Shown in pieces: positions 6,973-37,458 of a stretch of 46,094 bases of DNA (position 1 is the stretch's first letter; every line of letters begins with the position of its first letter). The stretch comes from a virus, in the IMG/VR virus record IMGVR_UViG_3300028597_000024, positions 1 through 46,094 of that record. One strand, written 5' to 3'. The notes below the pieces were generated by a model. That model ran no database searches and was not told the DNA's origin. It saw only the letters and a program-made list of their open reading frames with translations. The position numbers and the translations under genes were made by a program.

Positions 6973-9147
6973 ATGCGTATTAAGAAGGGTAGCGGCAAAA
7001 TCCTCGTACCAGAGGAGAGTGTCTATGACATTGCACTGCGCGACCCGTTCGACTTCCTCGGGAACCTTCGTGGTAACAGTGCGGGTATCATCACCGACAA
7101 CTTTGATCCCGAGAACATGAACCAAGCGGCCCACCACGTGGCCGCTGGTCTCATTGATGAGGCCGAAATCGACATTGCCCGCACAATCCGTGAGGTTGTC
7201 GATTCCAAGATTCTCGTACCACGCGATATGAAGATCGACGACTCGGGTATCCCAGTCGCCAAGAACCTCTACGAGTGGTGCACCACAGATCGCTTCTCCA
7301 TGATTAATGGTGAGCGACCTTACATCGAGCAGATTTGCTGGGGCATCATTGCCTTCAACGAGTATTGTCCGAACTGCTCGGACGTGGAGTATCTGTTCGA
7401 TACACACAAGCCAAGCGACTCCTACCGCAAGTTTGAGCGGAAGGTAGCGTTCCTTGAGCACGGCGTTTGCCCTCACTGTGGATGGGGCCGCTCGAAGCTC
7501 ATTCGCAAGGGGCGCATGAAGTGGATTCAGGAGCTGGCCGTATGTGCTGGTCAGCGTTCTGGTAAGTCGCTCTCCATTGCGGGCTACTTCGCACCTTACC
7601 TGACTCACCGCCTCCTCAAGTTGCAGAACCCGAACGCCTACTATGGGCTCAAGACGGGTACCATGCTTCACTGCACCTTCGTCGCCCTCACCTACGCGCA
7701 AGCGAAGGATACCCTCTGGCAAAACTTCTATGCGACCCTCACCGAGTCGCAGTGGTTCCGTGAATACCACGGGATGTTGAAGCATTACGAGGAGCGGTAC
7801 GGCGAGAAACTCCTAAAGTTCAACGACACCTACGTGGCTTACCCAAGTCGTGGTCTCATGGCATACCCAGCCGGACCAGACAAGCGGGTGCTTCGTGGTC
7901 GTACACGTTACTTCACCGCAATCGACGAAATCGGCTACTTCGACGCGAACCGTGACACCAAGAAGGTCAAGGACAACGCCCACGAAGTTGCCGGCGCATT
8001 GGACCGTTCGCTGCTGACCGTACGCGGTGCGGCTGAACGCCTGCTCAAGAACCGTCACGATGACGTGTACCCAGGATACGCCATGAACGTGTCCTCGCCT
8101 TCGCACCGTAACGATATGATTATGACGTTGGTGCGTCGTGCTGAAAACTCCGATACCATGTATGGCGTTGTGCGCCCGACATGGGCCGTGAACCCAACAC
8201 TGCCGCGTGATGGCGCTACCATCAAGCAGGCGTTCAAAGATGACCCGGTTAACGCGGAGCGAGACTACGGTGCAGTGCCACCACTCGCGGCCAACGCGTT
8301 CCTCACCAACCAGACTGAAATCGAAGATGCTCAAGGCTCGAAATCTAACCCTGTCACTGTCACTCGCAACGTTGTGCATTCTAAAAAGCGAGGCGAATCC
8401 TTCACTTGGGCTAAGCTCAAGAAAGCAAAGCGCGGCAAGTACCCGACCATCATGGCAATCGACGCCGGTCTTACCAACAACTCCTTTGCTTGCGCAATTG
8501 GACGGCTTGATGGGCTCACCGTCAAGTGCGAGGCCCTGATTGAGGTCATCCCAGAGCGTGGCGCGCCGTTGAACCACAGCCGCATCTACGATGAACTCCT
8601 TCTGCCGTTGATGGACGCGCGTAACGTTCGCATCCTCCTCGCCGACCGATGGAACTCTGTAAAGCTCTTGCAAGATGCGAAGGAAGATCGGCCTGAGTTG
8701 GAGCTGGCTGAGCAGCACAGCCTGAAGTACACCGAAATCTACATGATTAAAACGATGCTCCAACAAGGCACGCTCAAGGTCCCACTGACCGAACGCGACA
8801 CCTTCAAGGACTGTATCGAGTTTGACGACGAACACTACCCAATGTGCTTCAACAACCAACCAGCCGCTCACTTGCTGATGCAGATGGCAACGGTGAAGGA
8901 CACTGGGAAGATGATCGACAAGGCTGACGGGTACACCGATGACCTGTTCCGTGCTATGGCTCTGATGAACTGGGGCTTGCACAACGAGGAAATGCAGATC
9001 ATCCTGCAAGAAGCTCCAAACGACGTGGCCGCAACTCGTCCTATCGCTATCGCTGCATCCCGCCTGTACTCCGGTGGTGGTCGCCAGCTTGGTTCTGGTG
9101 CTCAATCCGTTTCCGTCATTGGCGCGAAGTCAGCATTCCGCAGGTAA
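6973..9147 (+). CDS. terL: Terminase large subunit
   Basis: This 724-aa protein is the DNA-packaging motor and headful nuclease. ATPase domain: Walker A AGQRSGKS (192-199), Walker B YFTAIDE (313-319), coupling motif MNVSSPS (371-377). RNase H-like nuclease domain: acidic residues in IMAIDAGL (D497), LLADRW (D557) and DGYTDDL (D655/D656). The residues before Walker A include two Cys pairs, CPNC (132-135) and CPHC (166-169), which look like a zinc ribbon and are not part of the core fold. A strong AGGAG ribosome site precedes ATG 6973. The portal follows one gene later, the usual packaging layout. Confidence 0.95.
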   Translation: MRIKKGSGKILVPEESVYDIALRDPFDFLGNLRGNSAGIITDNFDPENMNQAAHHVAAGLIDEAEIDIARTIREVVDSKILVPRDMKIDDSGIPVAKNLYEWCTTDRFSMINGERPYIEQICWGIIAFNEYCPNCSDVEYLFDTHKPSDSYRKFERKVAFLEHGVCPHCGWGRSKLIRKGRMKWIQELAVCAGQRSGKSLSIAGYFAPYLTHRLLKLQNPNAYYGLKTGTMLHCTFVALTYAQAKDTLWQNFYATLTESQWFREYHGMLKHYEERYGEKLLKFNDTYVAYPSRGLMAYPAGPDKRVLRGRTRYFTAIDEIGYFDANRDTKKVKDNAHEVAGALDRSLLTVRGAAERLLKNRHDDVYPGYAMNVSSPSHRNDMIMTLVRRAENSDTMYGVVRPTWAVNPTLPRDGATIKQAFKDDPVNAERDYGAVPPLAANAFLTNQTEIEDAQGSKSNPVTVTRNVVHSKKRGESFTWAKLKKAKRGKYPTIMAIDAGLTNNSFACAIGRLDGLTVKCEALIEVIPERGAPLNHSRIYDELLLPLMDARNVRILLADRWNSVKLLQDAKEDRPELELAEQHSLKYTEIYMIKTMLQQGTLKVPLTERDTFKDCIEFDDEHYPMCFNNQPAAHLLMQMATVKDTGKMIDKADGYTDDLFRAMALMNWGLHNEEMQIILQEAPNDVAATRPIAIAASRLYSGGGRQLGSGAQSVSVIGAKSAFRR

Positions 9148-9674: not shown

Positions 9675-11555
9675 ATGCGTATCAAGCGCCAAAAGAGCTT
9701 CGTCAACCAAGGGGCACCCAACTCCCGTGGCAACGCAGACGTAGGCACCGCCACCAAGAACCCGAAACGTACAGCTACCGATTCGGCACGCGGCTTCGAG
9801 GCAACAGCGAACACTGGTGGGCGCGGCACTGCGTCTGTCAGCAACCTGCCAATCGAAATCGACATTGAGCCGCTACTCAAGGATATCGTCTTTGGCGAGG
9901 ACCTTGAGCAGAAGAAGCTGGTCATGCGCATCTACAAGGACATTTACTACAACGACCCAATCGGCGGTTCGTGCGTAGACTTGACCTCGACGCTGCCATT
10001 CAGTGACTTCAACATCGGTGGCATCCAGAACTCGAAAGTGGCCGACAGCTTCAACGAGGTGATCGAGCGCCTGAACATCCGTACCCTGCTGCCTGAAATG
10101 TCGATCGACCATCAGGTGACTGGTGCGTTCTGCGCCAACATGCTGTACAACCCGAAGAAGAACACCTTCGTTGACCTGATCTGTCACCCGTACGAGAACT
10201 GCAAGGTCGACCAGCTGCCGTTCTACTCGCAGGACCCGCTGATTACCGTGGCGTTTCCTGAGAGCCACAAGACGATCATGCAGTCGGACAGTCCACGGAT
10301 CAAGCGCCTGCGCGAGTATCTGGGTCCGGAAGTCGTCAAGCAACTGAGCAACGACGCGCTGGAGCTCGACCCACTCAGCACCATCTACATTCCACGCAAG
10401 TCGTTCACTGACTCGACCGGCGTGTCGTACTACCGCCGCATCCTGCCAATCTGGCTGCTGGAGAAGAACCTCTTCCGTGGCACGCTCGTGGAATCTGCAC
10501 GTAGGCAGCGTGGTATCCTGCACCTGACTCTGGGTGATGGTGACCAGTGGGAACCAACAGTGGCGGATATGAACTTCGCCATGCAGTTGTTCCAAGACGC
10601 GGATGCTGACCCGTTGGGTGCTGTGATCGCGACTCGTATGGGTATCAGCTCCGAGGAGATTCGTCAGGGTGGCGACTTCTGGAAGGTGACCGATATCTGG
10701 GACCAGACGATGGCGATGAAGCTGCGTGCTCTCGGCATCAGTGAGTCCTTCCTGTCAGGTGAAGCAACCTACTCCAACGCTGACACCAGCCTGACCGTGT
10801 TCATTGAATCGCTGCGTGCGTACCGTGACACTATCACCACCAAGCTGTTCTACAACAAGATTTTCCCGCTGGTGAGTGCGCTGCACGGTTACACGGTCAA
10901 CTCCCGTGGTAAGTTGGTTACCAAAGGCAACATGCTCGATAAGTTTGATGCCATGAGCAATCACGAGATTCTGCAGGACGGTTCGCGCCTGCTGATCCCG
11001 AGCGTTCACTGGGCCAAGCAACTCAAGCCCGAAGGCGATCAGGCGTACATGGATATGCTGCAAGCAATGTCCGACAAAGGCATCCCTGTGCCAATGCGGG
11101 CAATGGCAGCAGCAGGCGGCTTCAACCTCGATGCCCTCCTTGCAGACCAGGAAGACGACTTCGAGTTGCTCAAGCGTATCGGTGAGTACCAGAAGAAACT
11201 GGCTGGCGTCAAGAAGGAGTTCTTCCCAGAGGCGGATGACGCAGGTGGTGGTGAAGCACTGGCATCCTCGCTGGCCCATCAGGCCCTCATGCTGGAAGCC
11301 CAAGCGCGTGGTGTACGCAGCACCGTGTTGCGTGATGGTGGCATGAACCGTATGCAGGCTCTGGCCCAGCGTAACTTCGGTGAAGCCTCCGAGGTTGCGG
11401 GTGAGACGCACGATGGCAAACGCCGCTGGCTGACCGACCAGAACAAGGCGAACGAACGGGTTAACCGTAAGATCGCTCGCCAGTTGAGTGAAATCGCCAA
11501 GCAGGATAACACGGCGCTCACCCGTATGACGGTTAGCCGTCGTATGCCGGTCTAA
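9675..11555 (+). CDS. Portal protein
   Basis: This 626-aa protein is placed and built as a myovirus portal. It has an extended Gly/Thr/Asn-rich N-terminus (1-65), an alpha/beta core starting near IYKDIYYNDPIGGSCVDL, a wing-like middle with IYIPRKSFTDSTGVSYYRRI, and a helical stem/crown region (ESLRAYRDTITTKLFYNKIF) common to portal families. The C-terminal 120 residues are charged and helical. The ring forms the DNA channel at one capsid vertex and docks the terminase encoded upstream. The ribosome site is GAGGTGA. Function is inferred from fold-like features and synteny; no catalytic motif exists to check. Confidence 0.8.
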   Translation: MRIKRQKSFVNQGAPNSRGNADVGTATKNPKRTATDSARGFEATANTGGRGTASVSNLPIEIDIEPLLKDIVFGEDLEQKKLVMRIYKDIYYNDPIGGSCVDLTSTLPFSDFNIGGIQNSKVADSFNEVIERLNIRTLLPEMSIDHQVTGAFCANMLYNPKKNTFVDLICHPYENCKVDQLPFYSQDPLITVAFPESHKTIMQSDSPRIKRLREYLGPEVVKQLSNDALELDPLSTIYIPRKSFTDSTGVSYYRRILPIWLLEKNLFRGTLVESARRQRGILHLTLGDGDQWEPTVADMNFAMQLFQDADADPLGAVIATRMGISSEEIRQGGDFWKVTDIWDQTMAMKLRALGISESFLSGEATYSNADTSLTVFIESLRAYRDTITTKLFYNKIFPLVSALHGYTVNSRGKLVTKGNMLDKFDAMSNHEILQDGSRLLIPSVHWAKQLKPEGDQAYMDMLQAMSDKGIPVPMRAMAAAGGFNLDALLADQEDDFELLKRIGEYQKKLAGVKKEFFPEADDAGGGEALASSLAHQALMLEAQARGVRSTVLRDGGMNRMQALAQRNFGEASEVAGETHDGKRRWLTDQNKANERVNRKIARQLSEIAKQDNTALTRMTVSRRMPV

Positions 11556-11556
11556 C

Positions 11557-11566
11557 GTAATTTACT
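11557..11566 (+). promoter_or_regulatory. GTAATTTACT motif (candidate promoter of the small RNA)
   Basis: One base after the portal stop codon, GTAATTTACT matches the recurrent intergenic motif; the ACT ending is shared with the copy at 17777. A start 5-8 bases downstream would begin the transcript almost exactly at the closing stem of the structured RNA at 11571. Confidence 0.4.
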
Positions 11567-11569
11567 AGG

Positions 11570-11713
11570 TAGCGAACGAGCCAGCTCTCGGCAAACATGT
11601 GGTTACTGCGAGCCACCTGAATGTAGTGTCGTCTCCCGGCGACACAGTTGGTGAGTTCGCTGGGAAGTTACCGTGGTTCATGGGCAGTTCGCTTCGGCGG
11701 CTGCCCTTTTTTT
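11570..11713 (+). ncRNA. Candidate structured small RNA
   Basis: This non-coding gap folds by eye into a branched structure. The closing stem is AGCGAAC (11571-11577) with GTTCGCT (11655-11661), 7 perfect pairs. Inside are the hairpins GTGGTT/AGCCAC (11599-11604, 11611-11616) and GTGTCG/CGACAC (11626-11631, 11640-11645). The latter has loop TCTCCCGG, and the first six bases TCTCCC could pair with GGGAGA-type ribosome sites. An intrinsic terminator ends it. It resembles no RNA I know. The 7-bp end stem recalls a tRNA acceptor, but a T-arm at the right place and a usable anticodon arm are missing. Confidence 0.45.
11682..11713 (+). terminator. Intrinsic terminator after portal/small RNA
   Basis: GGGCAG (11682-11687) pairs with CTGCCC (11701-11706). 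The stem extends with CGC/GCG around a TTCG loop and one bulged base, and seven T residues follow (11707-11713). This is the longest T-tract of the terminators here. It would end both portal read-through and the small RNA. Confidence 0.85.
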
Positions 11714-11715
11714 GG

Positions 11716-11755
11716 CCTCCGAAACTGTAAACCGATACAAACAGGCAAACGGAGG
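11716..11755 (+). promoter_or_regulatory. Hairpin sequestering the ribosome binding site of the next gene
   Basis: CCTCCG (11716-11721) is the exact complement of CGGAGG (11750-11755), the Shine-Dalgarno site of the gene at 11761. A second stem, CTGT (11725-11728) with ACAG (11741-11744), lies inside. RNA starting upstream of 11716 would hide the ribosome site; RNA starting inside would not. This suggests control of translation by read-through or by a trans factor. A weak sigma70-like pair (TTGGCC, 18 nt, TACAAA) overlaps the region. Confidence 0.45.
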
Positions 11756-11760
11756 TACTT

Positions 11761-12051
11761 ATGGTTATGTCCTATGTCACGGTCACGGAGGAGCAAGCTA
11801 CCAAAATCCGTCCGTACTTGAACACGCCAGTGCCTGAAGGAAGACATGAGCGCCTGCAACACCACGCGACACTTGCTTGCATCTTGGCCCGTGAGATTCC
11901 ATACCAGATCACTACTGCTCAGGTGCAGGCAGTCGCACTCGGCGTGCTGCGCATCACCCTCAACGTCGTAGACCCGGAGACCTTAGCGTGGCCAAAGACA
12001 AACGACCCGTCATTTACTTCAATTCGCAAATCCCCCAATTTGCTTGGCTGA
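11761..12051 (+). CDS. Hypothetical protein, 96 aa
   Basis: A small protein with a strong CGGAGG ribosome site that may be hidden in a hairpin. The N-terminal 75 residues look like a compact helical unit (VTEEQATKIRPYL, then HATLACILAREIPYQI, then VQAVALGVLRITL). The last 20 residues are read in an alternative frame over the start of the NADAR gene (64-nt overlap), so the tail may be under little selection. Family not recognised. Its coupling to NADAR and its separately controlled start suggest that the two act together. Confidence 0.6.
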   Translation: MVMSYVTVTEEQATKIRPYLNTPVPEGRHERLQHHATLACILAREIPYQITTAQVQAVALGVLRITLNVVDPETLAWPKTNDPSFTSIRKSPNLLG

Positions 12052-36386: not shown

Positions 36387-36893
36387 ATGCCAAAACCAAG
36401 TCTTGACGACGTACTCAACGTCGGCGACCCGATGCTCAACGACAACTTCGACATTACCTTCACCCGGGTTCCTGGTGGCGGCGATGGGCGTGCGTTGCGC
36501 ATCCAGTGCAAGTCCGGCGTTAAGCCAGGCATGTCGGTTGCCCAGGCGGAAATGGAGCTGTTCGGCCACAAGACCGTACACGCTGCACGGAAGACGTTCA
36601 GCAACTCCATGTCGATTTCCTTCCACGAGTCCTACGACGGTATCATCAATACCACGTTGGAAGACTGGTCGGAAGTCTGCCGTGCCACGGACAGCCAGTC
36701 CGGTAGCTTCAAGTCCGAATACGCGACCAGTGCGCGTCTGACGATCTACGACCAGGAAGGTAGCGAGTCCCTGAACTACGATATCTTCAACATCTGGCCG
36801 ACCGAAGTTCCTGACGCCTCGTTCGACGGCGCCGGTGGTACCGCGATGACGGTTGATGCGACCTTCGCATACGACTACTACAAGCGCGTGTAA
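36387..36893 (+). CDS. Tail tube protein
   Basis: This 168-aa protein follows the sheath with a strong AAGGAG site. N-terminal LNDNFDITFTRVPGGGDGRA, GMSVAQAEMELFGHKTVHAA and a C-terminal beta part (YDIFNIWPTEVPDASFDG) are as expected for a T4 gp19-type tube subunit. A terminator follows directly, which probably reduces read-through to lower-copy genes downstream. Confidence 0.85.
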   Translation: MPKPSLDDVLNVGDPMLNDNFDITFTRVPGGGDGRALRIQCKSGVKPGMSVAQAEMELFGHKTVHAARKTFSNSMSISFHESYDGIINTTLEDWSEVCRATDSQSGSFKSEYATSARLTIYDQEGSESLNYDIFNIWPTEVPDASFDGAGGTAMTVDATFAYDYYKRV

Positions 36894-36897
36894 CTCC

Positions 36898-36934
36898 AAA
36901 GGGCCCTAGCTCGGCAACGGGCTCAGGGCCTTTT
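36898..36934 (+). terminator. Intrinsic terminator after tail tube
   Basis: AAAGGGCCCT pairs with AGGGCC plus TTTT (36925-36934), with further GCTCG/CGGGC pairing inside and a GCAA-type loop. It would separate the abundant sheath/tube message from the genes downstream. Confidence 0.8.
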
Positions 36935-36954
36935 CCATTTCTACGGAGTACACA

Positions 36955-37458
36955 ATGAGCCGCTTCGACATTGAAGAATTCGTCACCAAGCGGGAAGGTA
37001 AAGCAGGGCCTGTGCATGACTGGAAGTGGCACTGCACCAGCTTGCCCCTGGGTATGCAGTCTGACTTCTGTGAGTCGGTCAGTATCCCATTCCCATCGTT
37101 CAACATCAAGCCGCTGTTCGGTGCCGGTACGTTCACGTTCTACCCAGGCTTCGAGGAAATCCAAGCCTTTGACTGCCAGTTCCACCTTGATGAGGCAATG
37201 ACCACGATCAAGTGGCTGACAGCGTGGAAGGAGAAGATTCGCGATCCAGAGAATGGCGCGTTCTACCTTCCAACGAACTACAAGTTTGACATTGAGTTCC
37301 AGCTGCTCGGTACCAAGAACGACGTGCTCCTGACTGTCGTGTGCAAGAACTGCTGGCCAAGCACCAAGTCGAACTGGGATTTGAACTACACGTCCACGAA
37401 CGGACTGCTCAAGGTTCACCAAAACTTCTCCTGCGACGGCATCAAGCTGAACATCTGA
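36955..37458 (+). CDS. Second tube-like or baseplate protein, 167 aa
   Basis: Similar in length to the tail tube. CESVSIPFPSFNIKPL, then TFTFYPGFEEIQAFDCQFHL, DEAMTTIKWLTAWKEKI and NCWPSTKSNWDLNYTS fit the gp19/gp54 tube-fold pattern (P-G-F, D-x-x-F, W-x-x-W). It may be a tube initiator, a terminator, or a baseplate tube-fold protein. It stands alone between a terminator and a 55-bp gap in which I saw no clear signal. Confidence 0.55.
   Translation: MSRFDIEEFVTKREGKAGPVHDWKWHCTSLPLGMQSDFCESVSIPFPSFNIKPLFGAGTFTFYPGFEEIQAFDCQFHLDEAMTTIKWLTAWKEKIRDPENGAFYLPTNYKFDIEFQLLGTKNDVLLTVVCKNCWPSTKSNWDLNYTSTNGLLKVHQNFSCDGIKLNI

Follow-up and report, generated by a model that had tools for sequence, protein, structure and literature searches.

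A predicted small structured RNA gene behind the portal gene of PaBG-like jumbo phages

Background

Does the gap behind the portal gene of a PaBG-like jumbo phage hold an RNA gene of its own and, if so, what would the RNA do? The question was raised by a sequence-only reading of the window, that is, the whole stretch of 46,094 nucleotides analyzed here (IMG/VR record IMGVR_UViG_3300028597_000024), a piece of the genome of a PaBG-like (Baikalvirus) jumbo phage. That reading proposed a stand-alone structured small RNA gene between the portal gene and the next unit. Few small RNAs have been described in lytic jumbo phages, and the Grad-seq study of phiKZ counted 21 phage non-coding RNAs in all (PMC8545117). 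Here, we describe the locus and its counterparts in related phages, and weigh the explanations that it admits.

Results

Layout of the gap

Between the end of the portal stop codon at 11555 and the start of the next gene at 11761 lies a gap, 11556-11760. It contains TAATTTA, a phage promoter box, then a three-way-junction RNA that is compact (~93 nt) and an intrinsic terminator; the promoter motif, stems, hairpins and terminator of the sequence-only reading were all found in place. The features are as follows.

6973-9147: large terminase gene, a clear call
9675-11555, plus strand: portal protein gene, the upstream neighbor of the RNA (PHROG 16240, E 2.7e-268; PaBG portal 79% identical)
11558-11564, plus strand: TAATTTA, -10-like phage promoter box ahead of the RNA; transcription would start ~5-7 nt further downstream, where the closing helix begins
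11571-11586, plus strand: P1 5' arm, AGCGAAC-GA-GCCAGCT, from the fold; helix of 14-16 bp in 5/5 members
11599-11616, plus strand: P2 apical hairpin, GUGGUU-ACUGCG-AGCCAC (DNA GTGGTT/AGCCAC), loop and flank URCUGCGAG common to all members
11626-11645, plus strand: P3 hairpin, GUGUCG-UCUCCCGG-CGACAC (DNA GTGTCG/CGACAC), loop CUCC in all members
11646-11661, plus strand: P1 3' arm, AGTTGGT-GA-GTTCGCT, pairing with the P1 5' arm
11682-11713, plus strand: intrinsic terminator, GGGCAG...CTGCCC followed by T7, from sequence and fold
11723-11731, plus strand: AACTGTAAA, second phage promoter class, which would drive ORF 11761 separately from the RNA

The transcript would thus be ~140 nt long, from ~11570 to ~11712.

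Fold of the window RNA

The closing stem had been put at 7 bp. That pairing, AGCGAAC at 11571-11577 with GTTCGCT at 11655-11661, is present, but the helix (P1) is longer: a tandem G.A/A.G step (11578-79 with 11653-54) follows, then GCCAGCT/AGTTGGT, for a total of 16 positions. P1 then opens into a three-way junction holding the hairpins P2 (loop ACUGCG) and P3 (loop UCUCCCGG). The segment 11570-11664 folds at -44 kcal/mol (z -4.75), as good a fold being obtained in 0/200 shuffles; a repeat with 300 shuffles gave z -4.3, so that the RNA scores between -4.3 and -4.8. Because a few other plus-strand places in the window score equally, this value is not exceptional by itself, and the case for the RNA is carried by comparative evidence rather than by the z-score. 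The best two of these places, 36861-36955 and 647-741, hold terminator-like hairpins. The strongest local fold of the window scan (36861-36993, z -5.6) is a long terminator-like hairpin, GGGCCCTAGCTC.../GGGCTCAGGGCC, with a T run, between two ORFs.

The apical loops are mostly unpaired in the folding ensembles. The C/U loop is largely so in the relatives; in the window this holds for UCCC alone, the outer UC and GG of the loop TCTCCCGG being paired in the fold model. A pseudoknot of UCCC with the GGGA right after P1 in the window was considered and rejected, as inspection found it absent from the relatives.

Relatives and covariation

Relatives were gathered by scanning IMG/VR with the portal protein, and the post-portal stretch was read in each. 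In four near-identical phages (L002, L003, L007 and L008) the core of the RNA is unchanged; the terminator hairpin of L003 is altered on both sides and still pairs. The same arrangement occupies the same post-portal place in PaBG and in three IMG/VR phages (L004, L006 and L015), all with portals ~80% identical, so the comparison covers five distinct members only, the window copy included. In the four relatives the RNA is ~92-105 nt long with a closing helix of 14-16 bp; the PaBG and L006 records, where this was tested, have one copy each. In the PaBG record the stretch behind the portal gene that corresponds to it is at ~70190-70350, minus strand.

Compensatory changes in the closing stem, which had been proposed as a test, were looked for and found. 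Across the four relatives, 98% of the helix cells are paired and 6 pairs show both-sided change, compared with 27-44% paired cells in slid controls. With the window added and its register set by the junction, 73/76 helix cells are paired and 14/16 columns carry both-sided changes; neither figure was matched in any of 2000 shuffles. The window helix shares just 2-3 of its 14-16 letters with the helix of the other members, yet pairing is kept in every phage, with G.U pairs among the members' helices. All five members fold well below their shuffles (MFE z-scores of -4.2 to -6.9 in the relatives). The unpaired parts stay alike: (U)URCUGCGAG caps P2 and the P3 loop carries CUCC(UUU), so that an apical CTGCGAGC and CUCC are common to the members. 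In the relatives, the P3 loop reads UACUCCUUU, UUCUCCUCCUUU or UUCCUCCUUUU, which we take to be close to the 3' tail of 16S rRNA.

A covariance model of the four relatives recovers all four and misses the window copy even with filters off; what ties the window copy to the others is thus its place, promoter, terminator and architecture, together with both loop motifs, which we consider sufficient for treating it as the same RNA, although not proof. Wider searches added no members. DNA searches among near and distant phages gave matches confined to the PaBG terminator region, pattern scans of IMG/VR for the loops returned the known members and chance matches only, a terminase search yielded no further members, and a portal search in bacterial genomes found none. 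The loop pattern occurred once in bacterial genomes, on a Bacillus contig, which we take as chance. It also picked out a look-alike, likewise attributed to chance, on an unrelated AT-rich phage contig (L157:1919-2030), where a closing stem of 13 bp encloses AACTGCGAGCC and a T run is present.

The earlier statement that the RNA belongs to no known family held when Rfam 15 was searched, with 0 matches at the gathering cut-off; the best match by E-value, sbrA, scored 24 and 21 bits where the cut-off is 45, and lay over the terminator. A coding explanation was also examined, since in one frame the conserved loop block translates as LLRA, all differences being synonymous; it was ruled out on inspection, as no ribosome site is seen ahead by eye, there is no common start codon and the frames soon diverge or stop.

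Promoters and transcription unit

The most likely role of TAATTTA is that of a phage promoter box. It is strongly oriented, occurring 14 times in PaBG against 0 for the reversed pattern, 17 against 1 in the L006 record and 13 against 3 in the L003 record, and 23 of the 42 sites that were read are followed 20-60 nt downstream by a ribosome site and start codon, compared with 10% of random window positions (binomial p ~2e-12). The window holds 4 copies where 0.73 are expected (914, 11558, 17778 and 34737), three of them lying 30-55 nt ahead of a gene start and the fourth ahead of the RNA. The RNA is separated from the portal stop by this box in the window, L004, L006 and L015, and by its variant TAATTTC in PaBG; from box to closing helix the distance is 5-6 nt in the window, L004 and L006, about where transcription would be expected to start. 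No sigma-70-type promoter was found at the RNA gene, where the box is of phage type, and PaBG encodes its own sigma factor (PMC7412058). In three other phage records (L125, L180 and L192), TAATTTA is followed by a conserved leader of ~100 nt (AATGTCAGTCA...CCATACCAACTA...GAAACTGTTGACGGAGACC) ahead of a gene start.

At the other end, the terminator is present in the sequence of the window, L003, PaBG, L006 and L015; a consensus terminator scan did not list the one at 11682-11713, whose hairpin and T7 run can be read directly from the letters. The motif AACTGTAAA sits 3' of the terminator and ahead of the next gene in the window, PaBG, L006 and L015. It too is oriented, with counts against the reversed pattern of 14 to 0 in the L006 record, 25 to 2 in Lu11 and 39 to 0 in HRDY3, and the GenBank record of Lu11 annotates a promoter at its post-portal copy. 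As a AACTGTAAA promoter past the terminator would serve the next gene, the RNA appears to form its own transcription unit. The layout of a stand-alone small RNA gene is thereby borne out, with its own promoter box and terminator and a fold kept by compensatory change, as in an independent phage small-RNA gene.

Just past the terminator, CCTCCG (11717-11722) can pair with CGGAGG (11750-11755), the ribosome site of ORF 11761, and like pairs occur in PaBG and L003. In messages that read through, such pairing may mask the ribosome site; those started at the AACTGTAAA promoter, which lies between the two arms, would lack the first.

Other RNAs in the post-portal slot

Lu11, HRDY3 and their IMG/VR relatives, with portals 51-55% identical, carry a different RNA of ~170 nt behind the portal gene, located as follows.

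L012:6932-7105: ~170-nt RNA
L013:6935-7110: ~170-nt RNA
L014:5550-5726: ~170-nt RNA
L018:4912-5080 (HRDY3): ~170-nt RNA
L017:4845-5005 (Lu11): probably the same RNA

In the first four, 15/50 pairs show compensatory changes and 92.5% of cells are paired, compared with 37-51% in slid controls. This RNA directly follows AACTGTAAAT, and its conserved pieces include CACYAGCCARAC and GGCTTAGCTGGCC. Like the PaBG-type RNA, it occupies the post-portal slot, is flanked by a promoter box and a terminator, and has a closing helix with compensatory changes; it differs in length, inner architecture and conserved letters, and in having the promoter AACTGTAAA directly ahead. In those post-portal regions of relatives that were searched against Rfam, no family scored at its cut-off or above. 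Elsewhere, L009-L011 have promoter boxes and a terminator only behind the portal gene, and the Erwinia and Dickeya relatives have no gap there. Long, structured-looking post-portal gaps that differ from both the ~100-nt and the ~170-nt RNA are seen in L074, L076, L077 and L088.

Possible targets of the loops

The sequence-only reading had singled out gene 13295, on the grounds that the exposed loop complements its ribosome site, GGGAGA. The hexamer is there; it also precedes gene 3256 (2/51 gene starts in the window), and the unpaired part of the loop is limited to UCCC. GGAG precedes ~20/51 starts, so that CUCC fits many Shine-Dalgarno sites, and because both motifs stand ahead of other starts, gene 13295 is not singled out as the target. 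A decoy for a GGA-binding protein of the CsrA/RsmA type had also been suggested; we rejected it, as the apical loops ACUGCG and UCUCCCGG are without GGA, the latter carrying CUCC. In three phages, no enrichment was seen for GCTCGCAG, the CTGCGAG loop in reverse complement. For the C/U loop of PaBG and L006, the complement AAAGGAGTAA occurs once in PaBG apart from the RNA itself (253997) and not at all in the L006 record. No unique mRNA target was found in these searches, longer loop complements not being repeated in the phage genomes.

Discussion

We conclude that the locus very probably holds a real structured RNA gene and that, judged by its sequence and those of its relatives, it is a conserved phage small RNA of a known general kind, absent from Rfam. 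The conservation of two loops on otherwise free stems indicates binding. The best explanation as a whole, which we adopt tentatively, is a stand-alone small RNA acting in trans by presenting these two loops. It would be made in the phase when the TAATTTA promoters are active and be protected by its paired ends and terminator. An anti-Shine-Dalgarno-like loop is plausible because CUCC, complementary to the Shine-Dalgarno sequence, lies in the P3 loop of all five members; as an antisense to such sequences, it would lower translation of selected mRNAs, with specificity or protein binding supplied by the CUGCGAG hairpin. Pairing between the C/U loop and Shine-Dalgarno sequences is the simplest reading and the leading candidate mechanism. 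That it would be the main action of the RNA is possible, though we hold this part with more reserve than the trans-acting RNA as such.

The predicted transcript admits another origin. Since no terminator separates the portal stop from the RNA, portal read-through must also yield it, and the element could mainly be a stable 3' end that protects or matures the message of terminase and portal, with a small RNA freed by processing; a 3'-UTR RNA of ~100 nt was seen by Northern blot in the jumbo phage phiKZ (PMC8545117). We consider this rather unlikely, given the TAATTTA box (TAATTTC in PaBG) between portal stop and RNA, and the conserved apical loops, which point to a binding role beyond mRNA protection. 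The order of promoter, structured RNA, terminator and gene on one strand would also suit a cis-acting leader, an attenuator or antitermination element deciding passage of the 11682-11713 terminator ahead of the tail/baseplate unit, and in the Lu11/HRDY3 type no promoter motif stands between terminator and next gene. In PaBG-like phages, however, that gene has its own promoter, no antiterminator pairing was identified, and the element is single copy, not repeated ahead of other late units; a leader of this kind is unlikely. Still less probable, in our view, is a fixed slot behind the portal gene filled by differing RNA architectures, in which the PaBG-type RNA would mimic the 16S anti-Shine-Dalgarno tail through its CCUCCUU-like loop and tune translation globally during infection, or be tied to portal or packaging.

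The position directly behind the portal gene and near terminase, together with a size and three-way architecture (terminal helix and two hairpins) similar to those of phi29 pRNA, brings to mind a packaging RNA that binds portal or terminase, and several relatives hold a structured RNA, though a different one, in the slot. Such a role is very improbable: L009-L011 have no RNA there and the Erwinia and Dickeya phages no gap, a standard large terminase is present, and loop complementarity, on inspection, comes to only three letters (GAG/CUC) in all members, as against the loop-loop contacts that define pRNA. We give the least credence to an inverted repeat acting as DNA (a pac site, recombination site or protein-binding palindrome), despite the nearby terminase and the long perfect arms in PaBG (16 bp); the arms are free in sequence while the unpaired loops are fixed, G.U pairs occur, and a promoter ahead and a terminator behind lie on the same strand.

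The trans-acting small RNA that we favor belongs to a covarying family absent from Rfam, and its promoter, ends and terminator are predicted in an isolated phage, PaBG, which infects P. aeruginosa PAO1, making it directly testable. The second covarying RNA, in the Lu11- and HRDY3-type slot, marks the post-portal region as a place to look for phage RNAs.

Comparison with known systems

The packaging RNA of phi29 is a viral RNA of ~100-120 nt from a packaging neighborhood, in which a terminal helix closes a three-way junction. The PaBG-type RNA shares all these traits and differs from it in the lack of sequence relation, in inadequate loop-loop complementarity and in its absence from many relatives. 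In phiKZ, Grad-seq found a 100-nt RNA between PHIKZ298 and PHIKZ297, which is likewise small, structured, located behind a gene of a Pseudomonas jumbo phage and probably ended by a Rho-independent terminator; it differs in having two stem-loops, in being judged cut from a 3' UTR with no mapped start site, and in belonging to another jumbo phage with other neighbors (PMC8545117). Bacterial small RNAs offer another parallel to the RNA described here. LhrC and RsaE are small RNAs whose C/U-rich loops block Shine-Dalgarno sequences. They are bacterial chromosomal genes without sequence relation to the phage RNA and have no counterpart of its conserved CUGCGAG hairpin; the likeness lies in an exposed CUCC/UCCC loop complementary to the Shine-Dalgarno sequence and in a compact structure.
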